DNA from: Gammaproteobacteria bacterium
Lineage (GTDB): Bacteria; Pseudomonadota; Gammaproteobacteria; Enterobacterales; Alteromonadaceae
Assembly (NCBI GenBank): GCA_018222405.1
Contig: JAAFAI010000024.1
Span: 1-64,000, forward strand
Length of the DNA: 64,000 bases
Direction: 5' to 3'
Shown piece after piece: positions 6,220 to 29,071 of the stretch. The translations under genes and the position numbers were made by a program. The notes beneath the pieces are model-generated. The model did not search any database, was not told the DNA's origin, and worked only from the letters and a program-made list of their open reading frames with translations. The number at the start of each line of letters is the position of its first letter. Positions within the stretch are counted from its first letter, which is position 1.

Positions 6220-6277
6220 CAAAAAAGTGTTGATAATGTCCAAATTATCCGCACCTCGTGCTCTTTACTCGAAATAC

Positions 6278-7087: not shown

Positions 7088-7128
7088 AGTTGTCCTCCCG
7101 GATAAATCTTTAAACGATTAACGGCTGT

Positions 7129-7881: not shown

Positions 7882-7892
7882 AATGCACCTTT

Positions 7893-9838: not shown

Positions 9839-9840
9839 TG

Positions 9841-10074: not shown

Positions 10075-10099
10075 GATTGTTCTCCACTCAGGTGCCGGA

Positions 10100-11688: not shown

Positions 11689-11700
11689 GCTTTAGCGCTC

Positions 11701-13498: not shown

Positions 13499-14560
13499 TC
13501 AGATATTTTTAAACAGCGGGCTGCGTACCTGCTGGGCATCCGCAGCGGAAATAAACTTCTCAGTATAAATATCCCTTTCAAACAGGCGCCCCTGCATTAA
13601 GGTATTAATGCAGGCATCAATCATCAGCGGTGGTCCACACAAATAAGCCTTATTACCACTGAAGTCGCCATCAAACGCACGCTGAGCGGCTTCGTGGACA
13701 AAACCTACCTCACCCTGCCATTCGCCATCGTCGCCGGCATCAGACAGCGCCGGGATATAGGTAAAGTTGGAATACTTTTCAGCCAGGGCTAAAAACTCGT
13801 CGTGATAATAAAGTTCTTCCCGGGTGCGCTGACCATAGACCAGTGTGATCGGATGCTCACAACCTTCTTCCAGCAGTTCCACGATCATCGAACGAGGACT
13901 GGATAACCCTGAACCACCGGCCATAAAGATCATTGGCATGTCGGCTGATTTTTTAACAAAGAAGCGTCCATAGGGTCCGCTGAAGGAAATTTCATCGCCC
14001 TCTTTCAGCTCATCGTGAATATAGGCCGTACCTACGCCGCCGGGGACTTTACGGATATTCAGCTCAATTACGCCAGGCTCCGCCGGCGTGCTGGCTATCG
14101 AAAAAGCCCGGCTGCCTATGTCGTCCGGTAGGTTCAGATTGATATACTGCCCAGCCTGAAACTCAATACCATCGGCACCTTCTATCTTCAGCCAGATACC
14201 TTTAATGGTGGGGGTTAAATCTTCGATGCGGCTTACCGTGCACTGATAATCCTGCACCGGCAGGTTACGGGAGTCGGGATCTTCCTCAATCTCCGCTTCG
14301 ATCACCAAATCACTTTCCGGGATCGCACAGCACGCCAGGCATTTATTTTCATCGCGCTCAAAATCCATCAAGGCAAAACTGGACGCTTCACCGTGATCGA
14401 CTTCGCCGTCCAGCACGTCAATTTTGCAGGTGGCACACAATCCGTGGCAGCATGCATGGGGCAGGTAAATCCCCGCCCGCAGCGCTGCGTCCAGAATGGT
14501 CTGCTCTTCCTCTACCTCAATGGTTTGTCCCAATGGCTCAATGGTTACTTCAAAGCTCAT
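13499..14560 (-). CDS. dmpP: Phenol hydroxylase reductase component P5
   Basis: Electron-transfer subunit of multicomponent phenol hydroxylase; it passes electrons from NADH through FAD and a [2Fe-2S] centre to the diiron oxygenase. The 353-residue protein has the N-terminal ferredoxin domain with C37, C42, C45 and C77, then an FAD domain (motif RAFSIAS) and an NAD domain beginning FMAGGSGLSSPRS. The domain order is that of DmpP and methane monooxygenase reductase. The gene starts two bases from the dmpO stop. Confidence 0.95.
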   Translation of the reverse strand: MSFEVTIEPLGQTIEVEEEQTILDAALRAGIYLPHACCHGLCATCKIDVLDGEVDHGEASSFALMDFERDENKCLACCAIPESDLVIEAEIEEDPDSRNLPVQDYQCTVSRIEDLTPTIKGIWLKIEGADGIEFQAGQYINLNLPDDIGSRAFSIASTPAEPGVIELNIRKVPGGVGTAYIHDELKEGDEISFSGPYGRFFVKKSADMPMIFMAGGSGLSSPRSMIVELLEEGCEHPITLVYGQRTREELYYHDEFLALAEKYSNFTYIPALSDAGDDGEWQGEVGFVHEAAQRAFDGDFSGNKAYLCGPPLMIDACINTLMQGRLFERDIYTEKFISAADAQQVRSPLFKNI

Positions 14561-14562
14561 GG

Positions 14563-14925
14563 TTATTCTCCCTGAGGCGGAACCAGTGTCGACAAGCCAG
14601 GCGTTTTAAAGCGGAATTGCTCTTTATGCACCAGTCCATTTTCCTTAACTGTTTTATTAAAGTCGGGCGTCCACGGCTCACCGCTTTTAGTCCACTCAAT
14701 AGCGTCCCAGTCAATCTTGTCGAAATCGGGATCCGGCTGCATCAGTGGCTTTAACTGCTGTTCAATAATGTCACCCAGTTTCTGATCCGGCGCACCAAAC
14801 AACATAAAAGGCGCCGCCATCAGCATGTGATGATCCCAGCATGCAAATAACAACTGATGACCATAGTAGTTTTCTACTCTGTCTCGCGACGGGAACTTGT
14901 ACTCGCCATTTGCTACAACTGCCAT
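14563..14925 (-). CDS. dmpO: Phenol hydroxylase subunit P4
   Basis: A 120-residue small subunit of the (alpha-beta-gamma)2 oxygenase component of phenol hydroxylase. The N-terminal half has ENYYGHQLLFACWDHHMLM and FMLFGAPDQKLGDII, features of DmpO/PhlE-type proteins. It lies between dmpN and dmpP with a 75-base spacer before it that contains a stable GC hairpin. The assignment is by position and family resemblance; there is no catalytic residue to point to. Confidence 0.92.
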   Translation of the reverse strand: MAVVANGEYKFPSRDRVENYYGHQLLFACWDHHMLMAAPFMLFGAPDQKLGDIIEQQLKPLMQPDPDFDKIDWDAIEWTKSGEPWTPDFNKTVKENGLVHKEQFRFKTPGLSTLVPPQGE

Positions 14926-14962
14926 AATAATTCTCCTGTTACACCTGCGCTGGCAGGCTTAG

Positions 14963-14985
14963 GCTGCCCGGATTGGCCGGGCAGC
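14963..14985 (-). other. Intra-operon hairpin between dmpN and dmpO
   Basis: GCTGCCCGG (14963-14971) and CCGGGCAGC (14977-14985) form a perfect nine-base stem with a five-base loop and no T-run. It lies within the operon just after the oxygenase large-subunit gene, so an mRNA stability or processing element is more likely than a terminator. Confidence 0.5.
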
Positions 14986-15000
14986 GGTTAAAGACGGTGA

Positions 15001-16515
15001 TTAGTCGGTCGACACCTGCTTGCGCCATTTCTCAAAGTTGGCTTTGTCTTCTGAGCTGGCATATTCGCCCGCTGCCGTAGGCTCAAGGCTCACCCACTCC
15101 ATCCAGGCAGCCAGGTCACCTTTCAGTGGCTCTTGCATCAGGGCAGGCATGGGAAGCCAGGCCTGTACGTACTTCTCAGGTTCCTGTTCAAACACATGCT
15201 GACAACCATCAGAACAGAAGTGATATTTCTCGCCTTCGTAATCAGTCTCACGATGACACAGTTGCGTTGGATCATCCGGCTCGGTGAACAACGTCGGTAA
15301 CTGACAAACCTGACAGAGCTTCGGCAGGCCAAAATTGTTGTACTCACCGCCCGCTTCTTTTTGCGCAATAGCGTATTCCCAGCGCGGCAGATAGTATTTT
15401 TCAAAGGTGGTTGGGTATTTCTCTTTTAACCACTCAATGTCGCTGGCGGTAGGTGTCCAGGAATGGAAGGCCGTACCGAACTTCCACTGATACAGACCCA
15501 GCATAATCTGATGTGAGGTGTGATCGATGGACTTCTCCACGTCATCCCAGTGCATTGGCGGTTTAATGCCGTAACGGGCGAGGTCACGGAAAAGCGCGTT
15601 ACCGTTTTCCACACCATAGATATTCCAGGCTTCACGCCATGACATCACGCGCTTCGGCAGCATGTAGTCCATCATAGCCGCAACCAGTGTCAGCAGGCGG
15701 CAACCGCGCCAGAACCACTTATCAATCCACTTCTGCACAATGGGAATGTTGTCCGGATCCTGCTCCAGCATAAACTTGATACATTCCAGACCCAGGGTCA
15801 TATGACGGGCTTCATCTGACTGGGCTGAGAAACCAAAGGTACAGGTGGCCATATCACCGTTGTAAGCCGCGCCCGACATAAACGGTACAAACAGCAAGTT
15901 GGTCAGGACATATTCAAAGGAGAAACCAATGGCAATCAGGAACTCAAAGGGCCCTGCTGACATGGCATCGTCAAAGAACGAACGGGGTACTGAGTTGTAC
16001 CAGATGCGATCACGCTGACTGGCAAAGTCTTTAAAGCCGTTGTAGAACTTGTTGTAGTTCGACATGGCATGCACCTGGGTCTGCGCATGACGGATTTCGT
16101 CGATGGACTGCATCTGACACGCGACCTGCGGGCCAACGCCGGCAAACTCACGACCAACCCGGGCAAAGCCGCGGTGGGACGCATACTCCGCCGGGCTAAT
16201 GCCCTGCAGGAACAGCTTGATAGCGGTTAAGTAGCGGGCGTCGGTCACATTCAGATGGCCATTATTCTGTGCATGTGCATCAATGATAGCGTAGTACTTA
16301 CGCTCTTTTTCTGCCTGGTATTTCCAGTAGGCATCCATGGTTAAACGGAACGGATCCTCCCACTTCGACCAGTCGTGCACCTTAATGCCTTCGTAATCAA
16401 CATAAGGATAGATTTCTTTCTCGTCGCGATAGCTTGGCTCCCAGGCCAGATCGCGGGTCATTAAGCGATACTTCTCTTTAACGTTGAGTTTCTTTGGGGT
16501 CTTTTTAATATCCAC
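15001..16515 (-). CDS. dmpN: Phenol hydroxylase large (alpha) subunit P3
   Basis: Catalytic subunit that hydroxylates phenol to catechol at a diiron centre. The 504-residue protein has both diiron motifs: E140-x2-H143 in SIDEIRHAQ and E235-x2-H238 in SDEARHMTL. E110 and E201 lie at the positions of the remaining carboxylate ligands known from the methane/toluene monooxygenase family. A C-terminal cysteine-rich segment (CQVCQ, then CSDGCQHVFEQEPEKY) is the YHS-like metal site found in phenol hydroxylases. It is the most diagnostic gene of the cluster. Confidence 0.96.
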   Translation of the reverse strand: MDIKKTPKKLNVKEKYRLMTRDLAWEPSYRDEKEIYPYVDYEGIKVHDWSKWEDPFRLTMDAYWKYQAEKERKYYAIIDAHAQNNGHLNVTDARYLTAIKLFLQGISPAEYASHRGFARVGREFAGVGPQVACQMQSIDEIRHAQTQVHAMSNYNKFYNGFKDFASQRDRIWYNSVPRSFFDDAMSAGPFEFLIAIGFSFEYVLTNLLFVPFMSGAAYNGDMATCTFGFSAQSDEARHMTLGLECIKFMLEQDPDNIPIVQKWIDKWFWRGCRLLTLVAAMMDYMLPKRVMSWREAWNIYGVENGNALFRDLARYGIKPPMHWDDVEKSIDHTSHQIMLGLYQWKFGTAFHSWTPTASDIEWLKEKYPTTFEKYYLPRWEYAIAQKEAGGEYNNFGLPKLCQVCQLPTLFTEPDDPTQLCHRETDYEGEKYHFCSDGCQHVFEQEPEKYVQAWLPMPALMQEPLKGDLAAWMEWVSLEPTAAGEYASSEDKANFEKWRKQVSTD

Positions 16516-16524
16516 GATGGTCTC

Positions 16525-16794
16525 CTAGCTGTTCCAGGTGAGTGTCAGAGCGTCTTCGTCTTCATCGACGTTGCCGCTGAGCGTGATTAGGTTGATGTTG
16601 AGTTCCTGCATATCGAACTCACGGCCAATTTCTTCTTCAATGGTTTCGCGGCGCACCACCAGGCTGCCCTCGGCCTGCACCTTTACCATGGCCGGTTCGT
16701 GCACCACTTCGGCGTCCGGATTATCCTGCTCAATGGCTTCCACAATAGAGCGGGTCTCTTCATTGGCCTGTAAAATGATAAATACTTTAGACAT
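16525..16794 (-). CDS. dmpM: Phenol hydroxylase activator protein P2
   Basis: An 89-residue cofactorless effector protein (MmoB/DmpM family) that binds the oxygenase and is needed for turnover. Recognisable features are VFIILQANEETRSIVEAIE at the N-terminus and IGREFDMQELNINLITLSG near the C-terminus. It lies nine bases from the dmpN start and eight from the dmpL stop, in the normal K-L-M-N-O-P order. Confidence 0.94.
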   Translation of the reverse strand: MSKVFIILQANEETRSIVEAIEQDNPDAEVVHEPAMVKVQAEGSLVVRRETIEEEIGREFDMQELNINLITLSGNVDEDEDALTLTWNS

Positions 16795-16802
16795 GATGCT
16801 TC

Positions 16803-17801
16803 CTACTTAAACAAACCGGCTTTTTTGGCACGCTGTAATAGTTCATCGTGCGCCTCGCTAACCAGTTCATCGGCCTGATTACCTTCTACGGCTAAACCTG
16901 CTACCGGCAATAACACCGAAGTAAAATGATTGGCGGCGGTATCCACCCATTCTTCCAGCACGACTTTATTCTCCGCTGATTCAGCCGCCATGGTTTTGAG
17001 CACTGAGTCCACCCAGCGCTTGGACTCCAGATACCAGTTAGTCATAAACTGGGTGAGGATAGAGATCCCCGAACCGCCCTGTTCCACCAGGTTCTGGTCA
17101 ACAATGCGCTGATACACCAGCGGATAAAGCAAGCCATCAAGCACGAAGTTTTGTTTAATGAACACTTCCACCGGATCGCGCACACACATTAAATCTTCCA
17201 GCGAGCGGCGCAGCGGTTGCCAGGCATCACTGTCCATCCAGTCCTGTTTGGCCGCTTCCAGTGCTTCCACATCGCCAATCATTAACCCAAGGCGCGACAA
17301 ATACTGGGCAATGCCTAGGTTATCCATGGCGTGGTAAACACAAGGTTGGGTAAACACGGTGCCGTAACCGTAGCCACACACCAGGGTATTGTTGATATTG
17401 GCGGCGTAACTAGCGTGGCGCAGGGGGATCAGTAAATTCTGCGCGATGGCCAGCACCGGATCCGGCATGCCTTCAATCAGGTTCAGTGACTCAACCGTTT
17501 TGAAGTTAGACTCCATGGTTTCCTGTTGCTTGGCGCGATTAAGCGTATAAGTGCTGTAATAAAACTGACGGGGATCCTTTAAGTCATACCAGTCGTTCAT
17601 GCGAATTTTGCTCAAATTCGGGTCGTACAGCTCCTGCTCAGGCGCCCAGGTAGGACGATAATGCAGGTTCTCTACGGCCTGCAGATCGTAGCTCGCTTCC
17701 TGATAGCGCGACGGGATTTTCTTATCGCCAAAGCGCTTCTTTAAGTGGGTAAAGGTCTGGTTTTTCTGCTCGATATTGACCGTTTGTACATCTATTTGCA
17801 T
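16803..17801 (-). CDS. dmpL: Phenol hydroxylase beta subunit P1
   Basis: A 332-residue structural (beta) subunit of the oxygenase, a ferritin-like helical protein without its own diiron ligands. FYYSTYTLNRAKQQETMESNF and HASYAANINNTLVCGYG are typical of DmpL/PhlB and the wider toluene monooxygenase beta family. The ATG at 17801 has a good AGAGGA ribosome-binding site. It sits between dmpK and dmpM. Confidence 0.94.
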   Translation of the reverse strand: MQIDVQTVNIEQKNQTFTHLKKRFGDKKIPSRYQEASYDLQAVENLHYRPTWAPEQELYDPNLSKIRMNDWYDLKDPRQFYYSTYTLNRAKQQETMESNFKTVESLNLIEGMPDPVLAIAQNLLIPLRHASYAANINNTLVCGYGYGTVFTQPCVYHAMDNLGIAQYLSRLGLMIGDVEALEAAKQDWMDSDAWQPLRRSLEDLMCVRDPVEVFIKQNFVLDGLLYPLVYQRIVDQNLVEQGGSGISILTQFMTNWYLESKRWVDSVLKTMAAESAENKVVLEEWVDTAANHFTSVLLPVAGLAVEGNQADELVSEAHDELLQRAKKAGLFK

Positions 17802-17826
17802 AACTGTTTCCTCTTAACTCTTATTC

Positions 17827-18108
17827 CTACTCGTCACGAAAATGGTGGGTAGCGTCGTGCAGGCTCCACTGGAAGGCGTTCTTTTCCTCGTCATCACAAG
17901 CCTCTGCCTCGTCATCGAGAAAAATCACCTGTTGCTCTGCACAAAACTTTTCAAAGTCCTGCTGTTTGAGCACCATCTCCAGCGCCACTTCGGGCTGGCC
18001 AACACTGAAATCGAACTCAACAAATCCGTCGTCTCGTTTGCCTGTTACCCGCACGTAATGTAACGAGGTGTCGAACTGCTCTTTCGGCGCTGCAATACTG
18101 TCGTTCAT
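17827..18108 (-). CDS. dmpK: Phenol hydroxylase assembly protein P0
   Basis: A 93-residue protein of the DmpK/PhlA family, which helps assemble the active oxygenase (iron loading) and is needed for growth on phenol but not part of the final enzyme. Features are HYVRVTGKRDDGFVEFDFSVG and the C-terminal WSLHDATHHFRDE. Position as the first hydroxylase gene supports the call. It follows catechol 2,3-dioxygenase by 23 bases, an order unlike Pseudomonas CF600, where the dioxygenase comes after dmpQ. Confidence 0.9.
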   Translation of the reverse strand: MNDSIAAPKEQFDTSLHYVRVTGKRDDGFVEFDFSVGQPEVALEMVLKQQDFEKFCAEQQVIFLDDEAEACDDEEKNAFQWSLHDATHHFRDE

Positions 18109-18131
18109 GATTTGTCCTTATTAGTTTGTTG

Positions 18132-19061
18132 TTAGCTCACTACCGTCAGGAAGCTCTCGTGTAACTTACGCTGCGGATAGTCGAGCCCCTGGGCAAAGTT
18201 GTCCCAGGTCCAGGTAATGGTTTCGTAATCGGGGTAAGGGTGATAACCACCCATAAAGGTCTCAAAGCGGTTACCGGAAGGATCCCAGGCATAAATAGTA
18301 CAGCCGCGGGTAATACCGTGGCGCGTTGGGCCAATATCCACGGCCACTTCGTTCATCGACATAATGTCACCAGCCCGCAGCACACGTTCCCAGCTTTCCA
18401 TTAAGAACGAGGTGTGATGCAGCTTGCCCGGCTCGGGATACTCCACAAAGGCAATGTCGTGAACTTTGTGCGAGCAGGACAGCCAGATACCCGCTTCGGT
18501 TTCGTTGTCTTCGGCAAGCACGCGCTCAACCAGGAAAAAGCCGAGGACGTCTTCAAAAATCGCTTTCACTTTGGCGATGTCTGGTCCGTACAGCAGCATG
18601 TGGTCCAGACGCACCGGCGCGATACCATGCTCACTCTGGGTATACCAGGGCGCCGGGTTGGTCAGGCCCATCCCGTTGCCTACTTTGGTTTTCTCAGCAT
18701 AGAGTTCAAACTCGTGGCCGGAAGGCAGGGTGAAGCGCACGCGCTCGCCGGTTTTCAGCAAGTCACCGGCTTCAAGACGGCGGGTTTCAACGCCATAGGC
18801 GTTTAAGTCTTTCTCAAGTTTATCGAGGGTGGCGGTATCAAGCACTTTAAAGCCGACAAAATCGACACCTGCCTGCTCAGCTTCACGAATAATGTAGCTA
18901 CTGTGATCCTGTTCATCCCAGCATTTAAAATACACCCTTCCCATGTCGTCACGACCGGTCTCGACCAGCCCCATGACATCACCGTAAAACTTAACGGCTT
19001 CATCTAAGTCCAATACCCGTACCGCTACATGTCCTGGACGTAATACACCTGTCATCGCCAT
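18132..19061 (-). CDS. dmpB: Catechol 2,3-dioxygenase (extradiol, type I)
   Basis: Cleaves catechol to 2-hydroxymuconic semialdehyde. The 309-residue two-domain vicinal-oxygen-chelate protein matches XylE/DmpB length (307). Iron ligands by position are H154 in RLDHMLLY, H215 (within KLHHTSF) and E267 in GNRFETFMGGY. It is the first gene after the sigma54-type control region, so it is transcribed ahead of the phenol hydroxylase genes. That order would make the toxic intermediate catechol removable from the start of induction. Identification of the activity is strong. Preference for methylated catechols cannot be read from sequence. Confidence 0.95.
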   Translation of the reverse strand: MAMTGVLRPGHVAVRVLDLDEAVKFYGDVMGLVETGRDDMGRVYFKCWDEQDHSSYIIREAEQAGVDFVGFKVLDTATLDKLEKDLNAYGVETRRLEAGDLLKTGERVRFTLPSGHEFELYAEKTKVGNGMGLTNPAPWYTQSEHGIAPVRLDHMLLYGPDIAKVKAIFEDVLGFFLVERVLAEDNETEAGIWLSCSHKVHDIAFVEYPEPGKLHHTSFLMESWERVLRAGDIMSMNEVAVDIGPTRHGITRGCTIYAWDPSGNRFETFMGGYHPYPDYETITWTWDNFAQGLDYPQRKLHESFLTVVS

Positions 19062-19441: not shown

Positions 19442-21166
19442 TCAGCGCGGCTTTTCGTTAACCCGGTATGCCAGTTGCCGGCGGGTGACACCAAGGTATT
19501 GCGCTGCATGAGTAAGATTGCCTTTGGCTTTGCGCACCGCCGCCTCAAACAGTTGCTGTTCATGACTGGCTAAATCAAACTCGCCCTGCTCCAGCAGCTT
19601 ATCGTAAAACTGGGTATCCATTTCCGGCATCGCACTGAGCGGTATAACCTGCCCCTGCTCGTCTACTTCACTGATACGCTCCTGGGTATCGGCTAAATCC
19701 GGCGGATTAACAAATAAGTGCTCAAGCTCAATTAAACCGCCGTCGGTGGCCAGCAGTACACCCCGTTCAATAACGTTTTCCAGCTCGCGCACATTGCCCG
19801 GCCATGCATAGCGTGTCAGCACCTGCATTGCCTGGCCTGACAATCCTGTCAGGCGTTTCTGATAGCTGGCTGAAAAGCGCTCTATCATTGCGTTACATAA
19901 AATCAGAATGTCTGAGCGACGCTCTCGTAATGGCGGTATATTGACCGGATAAGTGGCAATACGGTAGTACAGATCGGCCCGGAACTGACTGTCTTTAATC
20001 GCTTGCTGAAGATCCACATTGGTAGCGGCCACCAGTCGTACATTGACCTTGCGTACCTCATCGTCGCCCAGTCGCTCTACTTCACCGGTTTGTAACACCC
20101 GCAGCAGTTTCACCTGCGCCGACAAGGGTAAATCTCCCAGTTCATCTAAAAACAGGGTACCGCCATCGGCCCGCTCAAAACGACCAGGGCGTGATTCCTG
20201 CGCCCCCGTATAGGCGCCTTTCTTCACACCGAAGAGCTCTGCTTCAATCAGTTCATGGGGAATTGCGCCGCAGTTTACCGCAATAAACGGCTTTTCACTG
20301 CGACCACTATGTTCATGCAGCCAGCGGGCAAAGACCTCTTTACCCACACCGGTTTCGCCTAGCAACAGCACATTAATGGGTGAATCTGCTGCTCGCTTAA
20401 GCAGGTTGAGGGCACTGGTAAATTCAGGCGAGGCGCCCACCAGGCCATCGGTGTCGTACTTAACCTGGCGCTTACCGCGCAGTTGGCTGAGTTCTTTTTC
20501 GATTTCCCGTAATGACGGGCTGAGCGGATCGTCACGAAATAATTCGATGTAGTTCTCATCATCCCAGCAATCTGCAGGCTTGCCCACGATCTTGCAGTGA
20601 TGATCGCCCTTACACATGCATTCGATTTCTTTAAATACAATGAAACGGCGGAAAAAGCGGCTGGTATAACCTGATGCGTAACCCACAATGGTCCAGCAGG
20701 CAGCTTCTTCTGATAAGCCCAGTGACTGTAAATGAGCTTCAGCCTCCCAGGAGTTTTCAACGATGACTTCGCCGAAGAAGCGCCCGGTTTCCCAGTCGAT
20801 TTCGGCTTCGGTGATATGCGAGCGAACATGCCCTTCAAACGCATGCAACTCCGGCCCAATCCGAAACACATCGTAGCTGTTTTTATTATCGGCTAGCTTA
20901 TGCGCCAGGTCGGCATCCTGCTCACCGGCGACAAAACCAATGCGAATAAGCATGCGCTTGGCGGACTCGGCATCCAGGTAATCAAATAACTTGGTGCGCA
21001 TTTCCATCAGCGCTTTAGCATGTAATAGCAACAAACGGCTTTCGCCGAGCCAGATCTTCCCTGTTTCCTGATTAAAACGGAGTTTTGAGCGAAGGTCGAA
21101 ACGATCGACTACCTCTTTTTCTTCCTGCGCTATTTGTTGATCTGCAATCATACTACTGTCCAACAA
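19442..21166 (-). CDS. XylR/DmpR-type sigma54-dependent activator
   Basis: A 574-residue aromatic-responsive activator. The N-terminal 210 residues are the XylR_N and V4R ligand-sensing domains (CMCKGDHHCKIVGKPADCW marks the V4R end). The AAA+ domain has Walker A GETGVGKE, Walker B GGTLFLDELGDL and the sigma54-contact loop as GAYTGA, the common variant of GAFTGA. The C-terminal helix-turn-helix (LTHAAQYLGVTRRQLAYRV) is of the Fis type. It is expected to bind phenols and activate dmpB-dmpP through the two upstream sites 40-100 bases beyond its own stop. The start at 21166 or an ATG five codons later is equally possible. Confidence 0.93.
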   Translation of the reverse strand: MLDSSMIADQQIAQEEKEVVDRFDLRSKLRFNQETGKIWLGESRLLLLHAKALMEMRTKLFDYLDAESAKRMLIRIGFVAGEQDADLAHKLADNKNSYDVFRIGPELHAFEGHVRSHITEAEIDWETGRFFGEVIVENSWEAEAHLQSLGLSEEAACWTIVGYASGYTSRFFRRFIVFKEIECMCKGDHHCKIVGKPADCWDDENYIELFRDDPLSPSLREIEKELSQLRGKRQVKYDTDGLVGASPEFTSALNLLKRAADSPINVLLLGETGVGKEVFARWLHEHSGRSEKPFIAVNCGAIPHELIEAELFGVKKGAYTGAQESRPGRFERADGGTLFLDELGDLPLSAQVKLLRVLQTGEVERLGDDEVRKVNVRLVAATNVDLQQAIKDSQFRADLYYRIATYPVNIPPLRERRSDILILCNAMIERFSASYQKRLTGLSGQAMQVLTRYAWPGNVRELENVIERGVLLATDGGLIELEHLFVNPPDLADTQERISEVDEQGQVIPLSAMPEMDTQFYDKLLEQGEFDLASHEQQLFEAAVRKAKGNLTHAAQYLGVTRRQLAYRVNEKPR

Positions 21167-21278: not shown

Positions 21279-23690
21279 TTATACTTTCGCCGATGTTGGT
21301 TTTATTGGCTGTGGCATTAAAAATCGTGCCAGCGCCGGTAACAGGATCAATGCACCCAACATGTTCCAGATAAACATGAACGCCAGCAATATCCCCATGT
21401 CGGCCTGGAACTTAATCGGTGAGAACACCCAGGTTGCCACAGCAATGCCCAGCGTAATCCCGGTTAACACCACTACTTTGCCGGTAAACAATAAGGCATC
21501 GTAGTAAGCTTCAGACAGCGACAATCCATCCTGTAAACGGGATTTCATCACCGTGAGAATATACAGTGCGTAGTCGACGCCAATGCCTACCCCCAGCGCA
21601 ATAACCGGCAGCGTTGCCACTTTAACCCCGATGTTGAGCCACACCATTAAGGCCTGACACAAAATGGAAGTCAGCATTAGCGGCAGAATGGCACACACCA
21701 CGGCCCGCCAGGAACGGAAGGTAATAAAAGCAAGAATAATTACCGCGCTGTACACATACAGCAGCATTTGCGTATTGGCTTTTTCCACCACGATGTTGGT
21801 CGCCGCTTCAATGCCCGAGTTACCCGCCGCATTAAGGAACTGGAACTTCTCCGTGTTGTTTTCCTTAGCAAAGGTTTCCACTGTCTGCACCACTTCATTG
21901 AGGGTGTCTGATTTGTGATCCTCCAGGTAAGCAAAAATGGTCAGTAAATCACAGTTTTGGTTAAACATTTCCCGGGGAGCGCGGGTAATGATGGCGTTTA
22001 GCATGCCCTGCGAGCGAGGAATGCCGTACCATTTAAGATTACCTTCATTCATACCGGCATTGGCGACTTTGGCCAGTCCTGCCAATGATGAGGTAGTAAC
22101 CACACCCGATAGTTGACGCAATTCCTGCTCTAAGGCATCAACCGCCATAAGGGTATCGTAGTGTGCACAAGCGTACTGCTCTGTCTTAACCATAACCACA
22201 TATACGTCTGAACTGGTAGCATAGTTTGCAGTCATAAAGGCGTTATCAAGATTGTAACGGGAGTCTGGTCGCAGCTCCGGCGCGCCCTGATCGGTATCAC
22301 CAATTTTAACGTTAGCGCTGATCACACTACCGCACACGCCAAGGATCACTGCAACGATAACGGTAACCGTGGCGTACTTTTTACGGGTAAATAAATCTAA
22401 AAATGCCCATAACGGATGTTTGCTATGCGCCACATCAGCCTCATCGCGCAGCTCGGCCTTGATACTGCGTTTAGCCGCAGATTCTGCCACGCCGGTATAA
22501 GACAACAGCACCGGCAATAAAATCAGGTTACTGAAGATTAATACTGCCACGCCAATACTGGCGGTAACCGCTAAGTCCTGTATCACCGGAATATCAATAA
22601 CCATCAGTACCGCAAAGCCCACCGCATCGGAAATAAGCGCAGTGATACCGGCCAGGAACAACCGGCGGAAGGTATAGCGCGCTGCCAGCAGTTTATGAAT
22701 GCCGCGGCCAATATCCTGCATGATACCGTTCATCTTCTGGGCGCCGTGGCTCATGCCAATAGCAAACACCAGAAAGGGTACCAGGATGGAGTAAGGATCC
22801 AGCTCATAACCGAGGGTTGGCAGCAAGCCCAGCAACCACACCACGGCCACTAGTGAACAACTCACCACCAGCAGCGTACTGCGGATACAACGGGTATAAA
22901 TAAACAGCACCACAGTGGCAATACCAATGGTTATGGCAAAGAACACCAGTACCTGTTTAAGGCCGTCAATTAAGTCGCCCACCACCTTGGCAAAACCCGT
23001 GATATGGATCTCAATGCCGTCTTTCTGGTATTTCGCTCTGAGCTCTTCAAGCTTTGCTGAAAAGGCATGGTAATCGAGTTGATTGCCCTCGTGATCCATT
23101 TCCCGCAGTGGCACCAAAATAATACTGGAAGCATAATTTCCCGACACCAGCTGGCCCACCTCGCCTGAACGTTCAACGTTTAAGCGCACCTGATCCAGCG
23201 ATGTCTGCGAGCCGTCGTAATCATCGGGGATCACCGGGCCGCCATCCAGTCCTTCTTCAGTAACGCCGGTCCACCTTACCGAAGGTGTCCAGAGTGACTT
23301 CATAAACGGTCGCTCTACCCCAGGCATCAGAAACAGCTCGTCGTTTAACTCACGCAGCGTCTCCAGATAATCAGCATCGAAGATTGAGCCTTCGGTATTA
23401 TGCACGGCAATACGCAGCGCATTACTGGTGTCAGAAAGCTGCTTACGATTGTCCAGAAAGTTAAGAATGTACGGATGGTTACTGGGGATCATCTTCTGAA
23501 ACGCAGCGCTCAGGGTAAGCTGCGTAGACTGATACCCCAGGATCGCGGTAACCACCAGGCACAGTAAAATAATGATGGGTCTGAAATTAAAAATGGCCCG
23601 TTCCAGGATGCGCCCGGAACTGGTGTCGAAGTCCTCTAAGTGACGAATTAATGTTTCGCCCTGAGTTTTTGACGTAGATTGTGTACTCAT
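21279..23690 (-). CDS. MMPL/RND-family inner-membrane transporter
   Basis: An 803-residue RND protein of the MMPL (HAE-3-like) branch: two halves, each with a large periplasmic loop after the first helix and then five helices. Motifs seen are AIGMSHGAQKMNG in the first half and ALGVGIGVDYALYIL in the second. Such proteins move lipids or other hydrophobic molecules in or out of the inner membrane using the proton gradient. Its start overlaps the YCF48-like stop by one base (TAATG), so production of the two is coupled. No membrane-fusion or TolC-like protein is nearby. The set with DUF1329 and DUF1302 argues for a dedicated route across the envelope. Direction and substrate are unknown. Confidence 0.88.
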   Translation of the reverse strand: MSTQSTSKTQGETLIRHLEDFDTSSGRILERAIFNFRPIIILLCLVVTAILGYQSTQLTLSAAFQKMIPSNHPYILNFLDNRKQLSDTSNALRIAVHNTEGSIFDADYLETLRELNDELFLMPGVERPFMKSLWTPSVRWTGVTEEGLDGGPVIPDDYDGSQTSLDQVRLNVERSGEVGQLVSGNYASSIILVPLREMDHEGNQLDYHAFSAKLEELRAKYQKDGIEIHITGFAKVVGDLIDGLKQVLVFFAITIGIATVVLFIYTRCIRSTLLVVSCSLVAVVWLLGLLPTLGYELDPYSILVPFLVFAIGMSHGAQKMNGIMQDIGRGIHKLLAARYTFRRLFLAGITALISDAVGFAVLMVIDIPVIQDLAVTASIGVAVLIFSNLILLPVLLSYTGVAESAAKRSIKAELRDEADVAHSKHPLWAFLDLFTRKKYATVTVIVAVILGVCGSVISANVKIGDTDQGAPELRPDSRYNLDNAFMTANYATSSDVYVVMVKTEQYACAHYDTLMAVDALEQELRQLSGVVTTSSLAGLAKVANAGMNEGNLKWYGIPRSQGMLNAIITRAPREMFNQNCDLLTIFAYLEDHKSDTLNEVVQTVETFAKENNTEKFQFLNAAGNSGIEAATNIVVEKANTQMLLYVYSAVIILAFITFRSWRAVVCAILPLMLTSILCQALMVWLNIGVKVATLPVIALGVGIGVDYALYILTVMKSRLQDGLSLSEAYYDALLFTGKVVVLTGITLGIAVATWVFSPIKFQADMGILLAFMFIWNMLGALILLPALARFLMPQPIKPTSAKV

Positions 23691-24820
23691 TAGCGCGCTC
23701 CCCCACTCACCAGATTATCTTCACTGACAACGTGGGCACCACGCGCAGTCGACACAGCAAAACCCTGGTTTGCCTGCAGTATGTCGGTGATGCCACCAAA
23801 GGGCGCCTGCCCCATCAGGGTGAAATTTTTGGCTGCGTCCTGACTGACAAATAACTGACCGCTCTGATCGGCCAGCAGTATCTGGCCATCAGTCGTTGTC
23901 AGACCGCTGGTAAGCGTCACTTCAGAACCCAGCTTGACCCGCTTCCAGCGCCCTTTGCCTTTATTCTGACGCCACACGTTACCGCGCAGCCCGTACAGCA
24001 GGCGGGTCCCGTCATCCAGCAACAGGCCATCGAAGAAGCTGCCATAATAAGGCGTATCCAGCTTGGCGAATGTGTCGCCGTTATCGGCAGAGGTAAATAC
24101 CGCGGCCTGTTCACCTAAAATAATCAGTTCATTAACAGAGCGAACCACCTTATAAAGGTGCTTGCCCGCAGGATTGGGCAGTCGCGCAATAATCGAATAC
24201 CAGTTCTCGCCGCCGTCGTTGGTAGCGTAAGCCAGACCATAAGCACCAATTGCCCAGCCGTTAAACTGGTTGGCAAAATACACATCCAGAATGGGTTTAT
24301 CTGCGCCTTCTTTGATCAGGTAACCGGCATTGCGTTTTGCCCGCTCACCGCGCTCATCGCCAGCGGCGATCAACGACTCAGCTTCGGCCATGGCCAGCTC
24401 TGCCGCCTGATAACCGTCCAGCTGCACCTGCCAGGTATTGCCGCCATCGGTGGTGGCTAAAATCACGCCGCTGTGACCCGCCGCCCAGCCATTTAACGGA
24501 TCGCTGAAAGTCACTGCAGTAAGGGTCACCGACACCGGCACCGACTTGGCCTGTGTCCAGCTGTTTCCTTCATCTTCGGATAGCAGGATCACGCCACGCT
24601 CGCCAACCGAAACCAGCTTACTACCGGCCCGGGCAAGGCCTAACTGCAAGGTATTAACACTGGTTTTATTTTGTTTAGCGGGGGCATCCAGAACATCCAC
24701 AAGGGTAGATTCGGCTTCGTTCTCAGTTGTGGCGTGAAGCGGTACACACCACAGCAGAAAAGTGAAGAAAATTGAGGGCAATGCGAAGCCGAACAAGCCA
24801 TCTACGTTCATTCGTTTCAT
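23690..24820 (-). CDS. YCF48/BNR-repeat beta-propeller, exported
   Basis: A 376-residue protein with an N-terminal signal sequence or anchor (LFGFALPSIFFTFLLWCVPL, then A-T-T). The rest is a beta-propeller with Asp-box repeats: SEDEGNSW, TTDGGNTW, TNDGGENW, SADNGDTF and a weaker SQDAAKNF. The relatives of plant HCF136 in non-photosynthetic bacteria have no known role and often neighbour RND transporters. It lies between DUF1329 and the MMPL gene and overlaps the latter by one base, so it is probably a periplasmic partner of that transporter. Confidence 0.85.
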   Translation of the reverse strand: MKRMNVDGLFGFALPSIFFTFLLWCVPLHATTENEAESTLVDVLDAPAKQNKTSVNTLQLGLARAGSKLVSVGERGVILLSEDEGNSWTQAKSVPVSVTLTAVTFSDPLNGWAAGHSGVILATTDGGNTWQVQLDGYQAAELAMAEAESLIAAGDERGERAKRNAGYLIKEGADKPILDVYFANQFNGWAIGAYGLAYATNDGGENWYSIIARLPNPAGKHLYKVVRSVNELIILGEQAAVFTSADNGDTFAKLDTPYYGSFFDGLLLDDGTRLLYGLRGNVWRQNKGKGRWKRVKLGSEVTLTSGLTTTDGQILLADQSGQLFVSQDAAKNFTLMGQAPFGGITDILQANQGFAVSTARGAHVVSEDNLVSGGAR

Positions 24821-24849
24821 GATAACTATCTCTGTTACATCACGGGAGT

Positions 24850-24867
24850 GGCCCGCTTGCGCGGGCC
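24850..24867 (-). other. Intra-operon hairpin between DUF1329 and YCF48 genes
   Basis: GGCCCGC (24850-24856) and GCGGGCC (24861-24867) make a perfect seven-base GC stem with a four-base loop and no T-run. It could modulate expression of the distal genes relative to DUF1329. Confidence 0.45.
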
Positions 24868-24888
24868 TGTACCTTTAAAGCATAGTGG

Positions 24889-26235
24889 TTAGCGTACGGC
24901 GTCAGCCGCAACGGCATCACCGGTAAAGAACGTCTCAGGTTTGGTATCTACCACATAGAAAGCTTCACCATTGAGTGACTGGATCACACTCATAGTTTTG
25001 GCCTGCAGGTTAAATACCGTGGCGGTTTTAATCAGCACCGCGGGAACTGAAGGCACTACAAACGGTGTGACCTGAGTGGTTCTCCACAGATTGCTTTCGG
25101 CGTCGTAACCGTCCATCAGCAGGATCACCCAGGAGTCTTCATCGATATAGTAAGTCCGGGTAGGTACCGCATGACGCTTACCGTCGGCAACCTGTGCTTC
25201 AACTTCCCATACGCGGTGTTTTTCCCAGCGTACGTGTTCCGGGTTTAGGTGAAACTCGGCAATGGCTTCTTCGGCAGAAGGTGCAATAAAGCCGTTGTTG
25301 TTATAAGGCACCAGCATTTCTTTTTTGCCTTTTAACGTCCAGCTGTAGCGATCGATGTGACCGAGCAGGCCCTGTACTTCGTCGAAGTAGTTAGCCCCTG
25401 AGGCAACAAAGTCCGGCGTATCGTAAGCCACGGTAGGCGCACGGCGCACGCGACGCTGCCCTAACAGATACTGCCAGGCTTTACGCGGGCTGTCGGCATC
25501 GATACTGTCGCGGATAACCAGAGACTCACCGGCTTTAAACGGCGGCTCCATGGTATTGAAACGGAACATAGAGTATTCCCCGTTCCAGTCGTCCGCATCA
25601 GCGTCTTCATAGTATGGCGGATACTGGAATGAAATCTCGTTGCGGGTAGCCAGTGTGTGCGAGCCATCGGCGTTTCCCACGATATTTTTAAAGGTGTATT
25701 CGATAGACGGCGCTTCCACCCGTAACAGGAAGTTCCACATTACCTCATTGCCGTTCTCTGGCATGGGGAATGGAATACCGCCAATACAGCCTTCCAGACT
25801 ATAGCCCTGTTCCGCAAGCTTACAGTTTTCTACATTCGCCTTAATCGCATCATAAACCGGCTCTGGCGCCGCTGCCGTGCGATGAGTTGGATACACGTCG
25901 AGATAAAAGGTATCAGGGTACTTTTTCAGCAGTTCGATGGTGCCATCGGTCAGTTGCTCAGCATATTGCTGATAGTTACTGGCATCCACGCGATACAGCG
26001 GCTTCTCGTCTTTGAACAGTCCCAGCGGAATATCACCCGCGTGTTCGCCGGCCACTTTTTCAGTCAAACCGCCGGTCCAGGCCGGGATTGAGCCGTCGGC
26101 ATTGCCGGCCATAGTACCACCCAGCGGATTAAGCTCAGTGCCCAGCTTGCTGACATCAGTGCCAGCTGCAAAAGTGGCGGGAACAACGGCCAGGGTTACA
26201 GCCAGTGTCATTGCGTTACGAATTTGATTAAACAT
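24889..26235 (-). CDS. DUF1329 exported protein
   Basis: A 448-residue DUF1329 protein with a cleavable signal peptide (cut likely after ATFAA, about residue 24). The mature start GTDVSKLGTELNPLGGTMAG and the later GNADGSIPAWTGGL are hallmarks of the family. DUF1329 is thought to have a LolA/LolB-like fold that could shield a hydrophobic ligand in the periplasm; no function is proven. It lies 23 bases after DUF1302 and is transcribed with it, the normal pairing in pseudomonads and other marine gammaproteobacteria. Confidence 0.9.
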   Translation of the reverse strand: MFNQIRNAMTLAVTLAVVPATFAAGTDVSKLGTELNPLGGTMAGNADGSIPAWTGGLTEKVAGEHAGDIPLGLFKDEKPLYRVDASNYQQYAEQLTDGTIELLKKYPDTFYLDVYPTHRTAAAPEPVYDAIKANVENCKLAEQGYSLEGCIGGIPFPMPENGNEVMWNFLLRVEAPSIEYTFKNIVGNADGSHTLATRNEISFQYPPYYEDADADDWNGEYSMFRFNTMEPPFKAGESLVIRDSIDADSPRKAWQYLLGQRRVRRAPTVAYDTPDFVASGANYFDEVQGLLGHIDRYSWTLKGKKEMLVPYNNNGFIAPSAEEAIAEFHLNPEHVRWEKHRVWEVEAQVADGKRHAVPTRTYYIDEDSWVILLMDGYDAESNLWRTTQVTPFVVPSVPAVLIKTATVFNLQAKTMSVIQSLNGEAFYVVDTKPETFFTGDAVAADAVR

Positions 26236-26258
26236 AATAGTTCTCCTGTGCTCGATCG

Positions 26259-27938
26259 TTAGAAGGTGCGCTGAACAGACAGCGAGATGAAGTCACGATC
26301 GCCGTGGAAGTTTTCATAAGAAAGCGTGGGTACCGGCGCGTCATACTGGATCACTGATCCGGCATCGCCCAGATACTTGTTGTAAGTCATGGAGAAGCGC
26401 CACGTGCGGTTGTAGTCGCCTTTTAAGCCCACACTCACGTTACCGCCGTGCTCTGAAGGAAAGAGCACGCCATTGACCGATGAACGGCCCTCAATGCCAA
26501 AACCAAAGCCGATAGGCACCTGCATATCCAGACCCGGCATGACCTGGAAGTAATCCGGCGTAAAGATAAACTGAATGGCACTGGCGTCTTTGGTGGCCAG
26601 CGGATCGAGCTGGTCGGCATTCTCCGAAATATTCAACCGGCGGTTAAAGGCAAACTCACCAATAAAGGTGGCCGCATCCCACAGGCTGTTTTCATTCAAT
26701 ATGGTGATCATCGAGGCATTAAAATGAAAGGTATCACCACGAGGGAAAGCCGAATTGTCGCCGCCATCAGCGGTGGTATTGCCCGGCAGGATAACCGTGT
26801 TACCCGTGGCCACCAGTGACATATCCTGACGCACCGACATTTCTGCCGCGACGTTGGTTTCCCCCACCAGCGTACTGACACTCAGGCCATACACTTTGAT
26901 GTCTTCAGCAAAAACCTGGGCGTAGTCGCCGATACCGCCTTCCTGCACATTGATGCCGGGACGCACATAGAACTGCGGCATTTTGTCGTGGAACTGCGCA
27001 GCGTAGAAGCCAACCTCGTAATCGTTAATTTTGTATCGGGCCTGAAAACCGAACTGACCGGAATCGTCGGCGACGATGTCTTCGCTGCGGTGCACAATCG
27101 CGCCGGGGCCAAGAATAACGGTTTCACCGCCCTTATCGACAAAGTCGGCAAACGCAAAATAACTGCCCGCTGCAGGCAAACGTGACTTACGCCATTCAAA
27201 CTGATAATAGGCAGCCAGGGTCAACTTGGAGTTTACCTGCAACTGAGCAGCGAACTGACCGGTGGGACGGGCGACTTCCTTGAACTCAGACTGGGGAACC
27301 GATAACGCGCGGGCTAAATCCAGCCCGGTCATGGCACCGGCTACCGCGTTTGAACCAAAGAACAGACTCTCACCGTAAAGCTGAGCAAAACGACCGGCTT
27401 TGAGGTTAATTGACTTCTTACCGACGTTAAAACCACCGTATACAAAAGCATCCAGAATTTCGCCATACTGGCCGTGTAAATCCTGTGTCTCCTCGGCAAA
27501 CTCACCGGCCGGTACAGACTGCGTATTGACCAGCGCGCCATCGTAGTAGCCCGGGTTATCATTGCTCTCGTGATAAACCGAGTCGTACCAGGTAGCAGCG
27601 CTGACGCGCAAGCCATAACGACGCTTGTAACGCAGATCAAACTCTGAAAACAGATCCAGACGACTGGAGACCAACCCTTTATCAAAGTTGAGGTCACCAT
27701 CGTTGGTATTAGCCTGCGGACCAATTGATGCGTCAGCCACGTCTCTTTCGGCCGGCGCCACGCGGAACATAGCACTGTATTTAACAGTATTATCCCAACG
27801 AATTCGCAGGTCGCGGTTGCCCGTGTCAATGGTTGCAGCCTGAGATTGCGCAGAGGCCAGAAGGCCCAGGGCAACGGCTGCGGCGAGTGCGTTGCGAGGC
27901 AACTTATTGTTGTTTTGTTTCACCCACACTTCATTCAT
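26259..27938 (-). CDS. DUF1302 outer-membrane beta-barrel
   Basis: A 559-residue exported protein. I chose ATG 27938 because GAGGAGG lies six bases before it; an upstream in-frame ATG at 27962 would add eight residues. A signal peptide ends in ASAQSQA. The mature protein is rich in alternating aromatic strands and ends in SLSVQRTF, the terminal aromatic that marks BAM-inserted barrels. DUF1302 proteins are large porin-like barrels of unknown substrate, often found beside genes for degrading hydrophobic compounds. It is the first gene of the envelope operon and divergent from lysR across a perfect ATAC-N7-GTAT box. Confidence 0.9.
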   Translation of the reverse strand: MNEVWVKQNNNKLPRNALAAAVALGLLASAQSQAATIDTGNRDLRIRWDNTVKYSAMFRVAPAERDVADASIGPQANTNDGDLNFDKGLVSSRLDLFSEFDLRYKRRYGLRVSAATWYDSVYHESNDNPGYYDGALVNTQSVPAGEFAEETQDLHGQYGEILDAFVYGGFNVGKKSINLKAGRFAQLYGESLFFGSNAVAGAMTGLDLARALSVPQSEFKEVARPTGQFAAQLQVNSKLTLAAYYQFEWRKSRLPAAGSYFAFADFVDKGGETVILGPGAIVHRSEDIVADDSGQFGFQARYKINDYEVGFYAAQFHDKMPQFYVRPGINVQEGGIGDYAQVFAEDIKVYGLSVSTLVGETNVAAEMSVRQDMSLVATGNTVILPGNTTADGGDNSAFPRGDTFHFNASMITILNENSLWDAATFIGEFAFNRRLNISENADQLDPLATKDASAIQFIFTPDYFQVMPGLDMQVPIGFGFGIEGRSSVNGVLFPSEHGGNVSVGLKGDYNRTWRFSMTYNKYLGDAGSVIQYDAPVPTLSYENFHGDRDFISLSVQRTF

Positions 27939-28120
27939 AGCGTTCCTCCTCGAATGTTTCACTATGCTGAGTTGCGCGACCCGGATACCTCACCTCACAG
28001 CCTGTTGCGACAGCGAACCTCTGTCGCAGCAAATAGGTTGGATATTGTTAAATCACGCGTTGTGAACGAAATGTATATTTGCTGTTAATTACCTTCCAAT
28101 ACTATTGACGGCCCCAGTTG

Positions 28121-28135
28121 ATACCTTTAAGGTAT
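28121..28135. promoter_or_regulatory. LysR box ATAC-N7-GTAT between lysR and DUF1302
   Basis: ATACCTTTAAGGTAT, a perfect palindrome with seven-base arms around a central T. It fits the BenM/CatM recognition pattern exactly. It lies 30 bases upstream of the lysR-type start, where autoregulation would act, and within the divergent promoter region of the DUF1302 operon. The box upstream of dmpC differs from it, when read on the opposite strand, by one base. Confidence 0.75.
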
Positions 28136-28165
28136 TACCAATTTTATCGAGCCGGGATCCCAGCC

Positions 28166-29071
28166 ATGGATATTCGCCAGATCCGTTACTTTGTTGCCGT
28201 TGCAGAAGAGCGCAATATTGGCCGTGCAGCGAAGCGGTTATTTATCTCTCAGCCACCGCTGACACGGCAGATCCAACAGCTCGAGGAAGAGCTACAGGTA
28301 AAGCTGTTTGAGCGCACCGCTAAAGGCGTAGAGCTGACTTCGGCCGGCCAGTTATTCCTTAATGAATCACGCAATATTCTGAGTTTGATTGAGCAGGCGC
28401 AGGAGCGCACGCAACGGGCAGGCAAAGGCCAGTTGGGCCGACTCGATGTGGCCATTTTTGGCTCCGGAATTCTCAACACTATTCCGGATATTCTCAAGCG
28501 ATTTAAAACCGCCTACCCGGGCGTAAATATTGTTCTGCATCAAATGAGCAAGGCAGAACAAATTGAAGCGCTGCGGCAAAAACGCATTTCAGTGGGCTTT
28601 AACCGTCTGCTTGCGCCCCTGCCTGATATCGATTCCACCATGATTTTGCAGGATAAGCTGATGGTGGCCGTGCGTGATGATCACCCGCTGGCCAGTAAAG
28701 CTCTCATCAACCTTAAAGAGCTGGATAACGAGCCCATTGTGGTCTTCCCTAAAGGTGCACGGCCCAACTTTGTTGACCTGGTCTCTCGGGTATTTCAGGA
28801 GGCTGGGGTGACCATGAATATTACCCAAACGGTCATTGATGCTGTCACCGGTATTGCACTGGTGTCCGGCGGTTTTGGCTTTTGTTTGATCCCCAGTTCT
28901 GCCAGCGTGCTGCAGTTGCCCGGCGTAAAATACATCCCTCTTGGCGGTATACCGGATAACGCCACGGTCGACCTCAGTTGTATTTATTTAAAAGACGACC
29001 ACTCACCATTACTGAGCGCTTTTTTAGCGGTGGTGCACGAGTACAAAAGTCAGTTGAATAATCCGGCGTAA
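28166..29071 (+). CDS. LysR-type regulator, BenM/CatM-like
   Basis: A 301-residue LysR regulator taking ATG 28166 (MDIRQIRYFVAVAEERN); a longer frame from 28118 would run through the operator and is rejected. The winged helix contains NIGRAAKRLFISQPPLTRQI, very like BenM/CatM/CatR. The effector domain has the family features PKGARPNF and VSGGFGFCLIPSS. BenM/CatM regulators sense muconate or benzoate. Here the pathway goes through 2-hydroxymuconate, so a related dicarboxylate may be the inducer. Boxes matching its family's pattern precede its own gene and dmpC. Confidence 0.9.
   Translation: MDIRQIRYFVAVAEERNIGRAAKRLFISQPPLTRQIQQLEEELQVKLFERTAKGVELTSAGQLFLNESRNILSLIEQAQERTQRAGKGQLGRLDVAIFGSGILNTIPDILKRFKTAYPGVNIVLHQMSKAEQIEALRQKRISVGFNRLLAPLPDIDSTMILQDKLMVAVRDDHPLASKALINLKELDNEPIVVFPKGARPNFVDLVSRVFQEAGVTMNITQTVIDAVTGIALVSGGFGFCLIPSSASVLQLPGVKYIPLGGIPDNATVDLSCIYLKDDHSPLLSAFLAVVHEYKSQLNNPA

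Follow-up and report, generated by a model that had tools for sequence, protein, structure and literature searches.

A four-gene envelope cassette of the AmeABCD kind beside the phenol genes of an Alteromonadaceae bacterium

How hydrophobic substrates pass the Gram-negative envelope during biodegradation is the question addressed by a cassette of four genes from a gammaproteobacterium of the family Alteromonadaceae (assembly GCA_018222405.1), which lies beside phenol genes in a stretch of 64,000 nucleotides (contig JAAFAI010000024.1, positions 1 to 64,000), here called the window. An initial annotation of the window had put these genes forward as an undescribed system, which proved wrong: AmeABCD from Castellaniella defragrans 65Phen (Puentes-Cala and Harder 2018, PMC6394551) was described in 2018 with the same four parts, the same order and a deletion phenotype. 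The locus is a phenol-linked system of the AmeABCD kind. With a confidence that stays a little short of even, we prefer to see in it a catabolic AmeABCD paralogue, a shuttle for hydrophobic compounds that would work together with catechol degradation and most likely clear such compounds outward. Statements on papers cited by PMC accession refer to the parts of those texts that were consulted. The four genes of the cassette are:

26259..27938, minus strand: DUF1302 outer-membrane barrel (AmeA-like), 559 amino acids, Sec signal peptide recognized by eye, PF06980
24889..26235, minus strand: DUF1329 periplasmic carrier of LolA/LolB fold (AmeB-like), 448 amino acids, PF07044
23690..24820, minus strand: YCF48-like beta-propeller, probably periplasmic (AmeC-like), 376 amino acids, PF14870
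21279..23690, minus strand: MMPL / HAE3 RND permease (AmeD-like), 803 amino acids, PF03176

Open reading frames and Pfam matches agree with the coordinates, order and tight spacing first noted for the four genes. The DUF1302 gene starts with the ATG at 27938, which is preceded by AGGAGG; gaps of 23 bases and 68 bases separate DUF1302 from DUF1329 and DUF1329 from YCF48, respectively, and the YCF48-like and MMPL genes overlap by one base. All Pfam scores (392 bits for PF06980, 412 for PF07044, 73 for PF14870 and 91 for PF03176) lie above the curated cut-offs. The DUF1329 protein of the window is 99% identical to a protein of an Alteromonadaceae metagenome-assembled genome and 97% identical to that of Alteromonas oceani.

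A survey of co-occurrence, which had been suggested with the initial annotation, was carried out in 143 gammaproteobacterial genomes from 143 genera (thresholds: >100 bits for DUF1329, E<=1e-60 for the AmeD-like permease, E<=1e-5 for YCF48 and E<=1e-10 for DUF1302) and gave a strongly positive result. Full-length DUF1329 and the AmeD-like permease were each found in 22 genomes, and these were the identical 22, where 3.4 were expected (p 2e-26, uncorrected for kinship). Within these 22, YCF48 was present in 21 and DUF1302 in 21, and all four families occurred together in 20 of the 143; at the same thresholds DUF1302 and YCF48 were also present in 14 and 6 genomes, respectively, beyond the 22. 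In 18 compared cassettes from 17 genomes, the DUF1302, DUF1329 and permease genes lie inside 5.6 to 7.0 kb, a span measured on these three genes and not on YCF48. Among 72 loci of the genome_contigs set, all four genes stand in the order of the window in 60, and in the remaining 12 a part is lost, moved or absent by the search used, or a contig end cuts the locus; this set was picked by DUF1329 and shows the company of that gene, not its frequency, and the 143-genome survey is independent of that choice. The order recurs on plasmids, where 14 of 61 records with a permease match were examined and nine of the 14 carry the four genes in window order, including L081, whose third gene is annotated only as hypothetical. 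In four plasmid loci (L085, L087, L088 and L089) the set is either reordered or dispersed, and in L086 the permease alone is annotated as such. The four genes are a true unit, and their arrangement goes beyond chance.

AmeABCD consists of a DUF1302 protein, a DUF1329 protein, a COG4447 protein (photosystem II assembly factor-like) and an HAE3 permease (PMC6394551), and both this four-gene content and this order are found here, the order in the 60 of 72 loci just mentioned. The likeness rests on described gene composition and order, not on sequence identity, and extends to the position in a catabolic island; AmeABCD is substrate-induced and belongs to a monoterpene island, whereas the window has a phenol meta pathway and a LysR box. 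Deletion of ameABCD reduced tolerance to limonene and growth on it, left growth on perillyl alcohol normal and slightly raised the accumulation of Nile Red; when acetate was supplied, the mutant equalled the wild type on limonene up to 5 mM, and more than 5 mM inhibited the mutant even then (PMC6394551). A transposon mutant in ameB also exists (PMC4109377).

Further published sets resemble the cassette in part. In Pseudomonas putida, PP_0765/PP_0766 and PP_2018/PP_2019 form a co-fitness set whose members are needed together for Tween 20 and which, like the window, combines DUF1302, DUF1329, a periplasmic protein and an efflux-type transporter; predicted contacts were weak between barrel and carrier and between carrier and permease, and strong between PP_2018 and PP_2019 (PMC10866462). 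Unlike the window, that set is divided, by gene numbers, between two loci, it serves the use of a fatty-acid ester, and PP_2018 is not called YCF48-like in the parts consulted. The 'nanopod' cluster of the benzene degrader ORM2a (PMC13101534, 2026) shares DUF1329, a YCF48-related protein, MMPL and a porin-like protein with the window and is expressed during benzene degradation; its authors propose a comparable function for benzene and leave the direction open. It differs in belonging to a strict anaerobe and in having extra universal stress and hypothetical genes, and its porin-like protein is not called DUF1302 in the parts consulted. The dmp cluster of Zoogloea oleivorans (PMC7012976) has DUF1302 and DUF1329 inside a phenol hydroxylase cluster, as in the window, whereas its legend, as far as ORF 17, names no YCF48 or MMPL gene. 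DUF1302 and DUF1329 proteins are also among the nanopod or vesicle proteins of a phenanthrene degrader (PMC3110197).

Both families are still of 'unknown function' in Pfam, though the literature ties them to a four-part envelope machine. Because a search with DUF1302 and MMPL as paired literature words retrieved no paper, the known link is easily missed by those words. The AupAB type of alkane uptake was considered and rejected as a relative: AupA is FadL-like, and DUF1302, MmpL, RND and LolB are absent from the main text of its paper. PMC13101534 credits a deletion of DelCs14_1722 (DUF1329) with a phenanthrene phenotype to PMC3958437. The consulted parts of the latter report phnL and S-layer mutants instead, and its main text contains neither '1722' nor 'DUF'; the attribution may be mistaken or refer to another gene name, and it was not used as evidence.

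The cassette was said at first to lie directly upstream of an aromatic activator and phenol genes, and this arrangement was recovered. The longest frame of the activator opens 112 bases downstream of the cassette on the same strand and is followed, still on that strand, by catechol 2,3-dioxygenase, phenol hydroxylase subunits and the meta pathway, down to position 6668. The genes that flank the cassette are:

19442..21166, minus strand: MobR/DmpR-like sigma-54 activator (PF06505 XylR_N, V4R, Sigma54_activat)
6668..19061, minus strand: phenol hydroxylase, catechol 2,3-dioxygenase and meta pathway, accompanied by the cassette
28118..29071, plus strand: divergent LysR regulator of the BenM/CatM/AlsR kind (PF03466/PF00126)

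In order to approach this link from the side of the phenol hydroxylase, one of its subunits was searched in 303 genomes of the class and 118 of the family (E<=1e-120) and was found in 9 class and 2 family genomes, that is, in 10 different genomes. A DUF1329 gene lies within 16 kb on the same contig in four of the ten (the window genome, G091, G120 and G355); of the other six, three have no DUF1329 gene at E<=1e-10, two have one on another contig only, and one is too fragmented. These numbers, four of ten nearby and three of ten with none, rule out an obligate link between cassette and phenol pathway. A search at E<=1e-200 was too strict for divergent cassettes, and a looser one was made on nine genomes. 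Over the nine judgeable genomes (G302, with short contigs, stays out of the chance estimate), 0.13 pairings were expected within the 16 kb limit, which was set after the places had been seen (P ~2e-6, or 8e-5 if the window genome is left out).

The cassettes of G091, G120 and G355 are divergent, with permeases 24-26% identical to that of the window. Such divergent cassettes (L116, L117 and L118) next to phenol hydroxylase or meta-pathway genes in three further gammaproteobacterial genomes are a new detail. Their DUF1302 was confirmed by Pfam in L116 and L117 and is known from the genome search in L118 (G120 C44), and L116 has the order YCF48-MMPL-DUF1302-DUF1329. Because three of the four phenol-linked cassettes are divergent (~25% permease identity), the pairing with phenol clusters probably has more than one origin. 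Other cassettes have as neighbours, by existing annotations or Pfam hits, genes for hydroxyquinol dioxygenases, 4-hydroxybenzoate monooxygenase, benzaldehyde dehydrogenase, aldoxime dehydratase, nitrilase-type and reductive dehalogenase domain proteins, dmpG and acetaldehyde dehydrogenase; some plasmid cassettes are without a clear catabolic neighbour.

The genome of the window contains a second cassette, on contig C11 (L102), between genes for an M1 peptidase and for NAD-glutamate dehydrogenase and PyrD. Core loci of this kind in Shewanella, Ferrimonas, Parashewanella, Psychrosphaera and Alteromonas hold the same four genes, in the same order as in the window and together with the dehydrogenase and PyrD, in 34 of 34 cases, and the full core order with the M1 peptidase in 33 of 34, L051 being without the peptidase in the stretch available. 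These cassettes (L102, L033-L061 and L071-L075) occupy a fixed place beside NAD-glutamate dehydrogenase and PyrD in Alteromonadales. They differ from the window in this fixed chromosomal place, in a permease only ~45% identical and in the lack, in all 32 core loci tested, of the LysR box described below. An AmeD-like permease (E<=1e-150), wherever placed, is present in 113 of the 118 genomes of the window's family, and this near-universal core copy speaks for a general task with hydrophobes or lipids and for its being the source of the catabolic copies.

The permease of the window is ~45% identical to its own core copy and 67-75% identical to those of loci from Azoarcus, Zavarzinia, Pseudomonas and Hydrocarboniphaga. 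A permease tree of 60 of 79 rows was obtained by a short search with SH-aLRT support, with 19 core rows omitted by hand and some long plasmid branches. In this tree, 20 rows with phenol hydroxylase genes, with ungrouped rows among them, need one change versus 16 core rows, which make up one side of a branch; both groupings have a support of 100. By the tree and the identities, the window copy is an extra, catabolic paralogue that was probably acquired with the phenol genes.

A LysR box common to the cassette and dmpC had also been claimed, and ATAC-N7-GTAT was indeed found before both. This motif, which we take to be the BenM/CatM operator consensus, is matched in sequence by two predicted operators:

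28121..28135, minus strand: predicted LysR operator ATACCTTAAAGGTAT, 183 bases before the DUF1302 gene
13281..13295, minus strand: second predicted LysR operator ATACCTTTAAAGTAT, 120 bases before dmpC (11701-13161)

The motif occurs at four sites in the window (0.54 expected), and exact matches to a longer box consensus are confined there to the sites at the cassette and at dmpC. Another of the four, at 29733, lies inside the coding sequence of fadE, where conservation among relatives may be due to the protein; the fourth is at 54896. Between DUF1329 and YCF48 there is a further, LysR-like box (24869-24883) with two mismatches.

Among the genome_contigs loci, ATAC-N7-GTAT precedes 23 of 30 cassettes of the catabolic type (shuffling predicts 0.18) and none of 35 other cassettes (0.48 expected), 32 of which are at the core place; the tested region covered 450 bases upstream and 200 bases downstream of the mechanical DUF1302 start. 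The 23 positives include nine close Alteromonadaceae loci and a duplicated pair (L023, L024), and without the nine the count is 14 of 21. L011, with its box at 8118, was scored as a miss on account of a mechanical start set too far upstream; L066 and L067 were classed as catabolic although they have no YCF48 and MMPL; L063, L068 and L069 were put with the core set solely since their DUF1302 is <32% identical; L027 and L030 stood outside the test. In the Zavarzinia loci L011 and L013 the box precedes dmpC too. The plasmid cassettes, which stand beside other genes, showed no box within 600 bases upstream in 13 of 14 (those with a start set), and the box therefore belongs to the window's branch. 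That this predicted operator marks catabolic-type cassettes is a further new detail.

The divergent LysR scores 238 bits with AlsR, 179 with BenM and 175 with CatM of NCBIfam, all below cut-off, and its gene probably starts near 28166, because the profiles begin at residue 17. Of the 60 ordered loci, 18 have a LysR >50% identical to it in divergent orientation to the cassette. Since the box is common to cassette and dmpC and is kept in relatives, and since a LysR gene stands divergently beside it, the cassette is probably controlled jointly with the lower meta pathway. Control of the cassette by sigma-54 was considered as well: no -24/-12 match precedes DUF1302, and the scan was uninformative, with 15 matches in the window versus 24 expected. 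The MobR/DmpR-like activator scores 560 bits with NCBIfam MobR, below cut-off, and perhaps has its own promoter, a promoter-like site at 21224-21195 that is weak and comes from a scan with fewer sites than in shuffles. A sigma-70 and terminator scan of 20900-28400 was of no use either, with three promoter-like sites versus 7.6 in shuffles and 12 terminator-like sites versus 8.1.

The presence of a DUF1329 gene nearby in only four of ten phenol-hydroxylase genomes shows that the cassette is optional and would suit a passenger that is carried along with the phenol genes but contributes nothing to their use. We consider this very improbable, as four pairings stand against 0.13 expected (with the limit set post hoc), the pairing probably arose more than once and the predicted operator is conserved.

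What the four proteins may do together was examined through their folds. The initial guesses of a 'LolB-like carrier' and an 'outer-membrane barrel' agree with the structure models. A structure model of the DUF1329 protein from 27 sequences (pLDDT 87.7) has a LolA/LolB fold across approximately residues 160-446, its C-terminal part, and superimposes on LolA3 with a Z score of 21.6 (root-mean-square deviation 2.5 over 236 residues), on a solved DUF1329 protein with 19.1 and on a LolA mutant with bound lipoprotein with 8.6. Two Pseudomonas cassettes (L015 and L022) have a DUF1329 gene on either side of DUF1302, that is, a duplicated carrier. The AlphaFold2 model of the DUF1302 protein, also from 27 sequences, is weaker (pLDDT 76.5) and is a barrel whose closest folds, with Z scores of about 21, are OprD/Occ channels, a BenF-like porin and AlgE (OccK2 21.3, with a root-mean-square deviation of 3.4 over 306 residues; BenF-like porin 21.3; AlgE 20.9). 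As uptake channels and AlgE tie, the direction of transport is unreadable from this fold search. The sole Pfam family of the barrel is DUF1302, and no membership of the FadL (toluene transporter) family was found. The YCF48-like protein matches solved Ycf48/HCF136 chains (E 5e-12 to 8e-11).

By hydropathy, the permease has an RND topology with two large loops. Its best NCBIfam match, TIGR00921 (HAE3), reaches 157 bits, below the cut-off of 351.9, and it was not identified as HpnN, since the two NCBIfam HpnN models gave 60.5 bits versus 751.85 and 19.1 versus 1100. It aligns with MmpL3 around an Asp-Tyr pair in transmembrane segment 10 (TM10), and Asp706 and Tyr707 of TM10 are present in all 79 cassette permeases. 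MmpL3 has Asp-Tyr dyads in TM4 and in TM10 (PMC11481577); this two-dyad proton relay was not found here, as the TM10 dyad is there and TM4 has Ser-His in 79 of 79. Ser314, His315 and Gln318 of TM4 (Ser-His-x-x-Gln) occur in all 79, the three divergent phenol-linked permeases retain SHG(V/I)Q, and these three residues together with Asp706 and Tyr707 are invariant in a 19-row alignment that includes the divergent permeases. Conservation was taken from per-position counts, as the near-invariant listing included gap columns. This signature, the TM4 relay Asp replaced by His, is among the new details, with no literature search aimed at the substitution. Since the permease lacks that Asp, ordinary proton antiport is not to be assumed. 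The second large loop contains two cysteines, Cys508 and Cys580, that 78 of the 79 permeases share and that perhaps form a disulfide.

We propose that the system is a shuttle of four parts, powered by protons, that moves small molecules of hydrophobic or amphiphilic character, and that the four genes form a shuttle at all is quite probable. Composition and order as in AmeABCD, the LolA/LolB fold of the carrier, the porin-like barrel, the RND topology and a TM10 Asp-Tyr pair as in the proton-driven MmpL3 argue for it. The permease would extract its cargo from the inner membrane or the periplasm, the DUF1329 protein with its LolA fold would ferry it across the periplasm, where the YCF48-like propeller may aid docking, and the DUF1302 barrel would let it through or into the outer membrane. 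No Pfam match to a membrane fusion protein adaptor or a TolC-type outer-membrane factor was found among the four proteins at E<=0.001, and because a permease, a soluble lipid-type carrier and a porin-like barrel occur without adaptor or TolC-type duct, a relay of carriers would be expected rather than a sealed TolC-type duct. The BenM/CatM-like LysR would turn the cassette on with the lower meta pathway while the catechols from phenol or alkylphenols are degraded, and the most likely job would be the outward clearing of a hydrophobic aromatic substrate or of side-products, as proposed for AmeABCD. The analysis itself establishes the parts and their folds, their conservation as a unit, the relation to phenol clusters and the sequence of the operator; substrate, regulation, order of hand-over and direction are what we infer, and the deletion phenotypes come from papers on other copies.

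Several points weigh against this outward shuttle. Phenol, a small polar molecule, does not need a pump; a DUF1329 gene at E<=1e-10 is missing from three of the ten genomes with phenol hydroxylase; permeases of this kind in 113 of 118 family genomes indicate a role wider than aromatics; and the TM4 Asp of the two-dyad relay is absent. In C. defragrans, the Nile Red difference appeared only with carbonyl cyanide m-chlorophenylhydrazone (CCCP), and the mutant and the wild type hardly differed in their efflux curves (PMC6394551). Because the published growth data (acetate rescue, normal growth on perillyl alcohol) fit uptake nearly as well as efflux and the dye data are weak, the outward direction is favoured only slightly. 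The trans-envelope route for hydrophobic molecules put forward initially, with its tie to aromatic catabolism, is well supported; import of substrate, one of its two versions, is possible, and the authors of AmeABCD favour efflux.

The same machine may run inward, the barrel taking up aromatics and the DUF1329 protein carrying them to the permease and on to the inner membrane or cytoplasm, which we regard as possible but doubtful. NPC2, which passes cholesterol to NPC1, offers a likeness for such a hand-over. The cassettes stand in catabolic clusters of several pathways, the predicted operator is common with the lower pathway, the closest solved folds of the barrel include the uptake channels OpdK and BenF-like porin, and all 79 permeases have His in place of the TM4 relay Asp. 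The limonene growth defect with acetate rescue up to 5 mM and normal growth on perillyl alcohol (PMC6394551) and the need of the P. putida homologues for Tween 20 use (PMC10866462) would also suit uptake, whereas inhibition of the mutant by >5 mM limonene even with acetate points to tolerance (PMC6394551). The exporter AlgE scores level with the uptake channels. To our knowledge, inward transport is not proven for any bacterial RND protein, which counts against import; an inward direction, if true, would be unusual for the RND superfamily. It is unlikely, in our estimate, that AmeD permeases make up a branch of the RND proteins whose proton relay was rebuilt (TM4 Asp to His, retained down to 25% identity) and which supplies a LolA-like carrier and a porin-like barrel, with catabolic copies that carry out energised inward uptake of hydrophobic substrates and were recruited to phenol pathways repeatedly, one of them LysR-wired. 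A core and a catabolic copy in one genome, a predicted operator and the conserved His315 make the locus a tractable case.

The LolA/LolB fold of the carrier, the Tween 20 phenotype of the P. putida homologues, the hopanoids and trehalose monomycolate carried by HAE3/MMPL relatives of known cargo, the near-universal presence of such a permease across the family and a core copy sited away from catabolic clusters would all suit a cassette that moves membrane lipids or fatty acids, with catabolic copies adjusting the outer membrane under aromatics. We judge this rather improbable, as the placing in different catabolic clusters and the box common with dmpC fit a pathway substrate better.

Two other loci were noted. 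L103, in the window genome (C24:70000-88000; 7989-12727, 5440-6417), is a three-gene look-alike near a MesX gene and consists of a 455-amino-acid protein, a LolA_like (PF17131) protein and an MMPL/sterol-sensing permease. The 455-amino-acid protein gave a weak DUF1302 match and no Pfam family when scanned singly, and L103 seems to be a parallel version of the cassette architecture. Its permease, the other MMPL protein of the window genome on contig C24, has the ordinary TM4 Asp at the position of the His. In the window itself, positions 39697-41973 encode a 758-amino-acid protein with six CHRD domain stretches.

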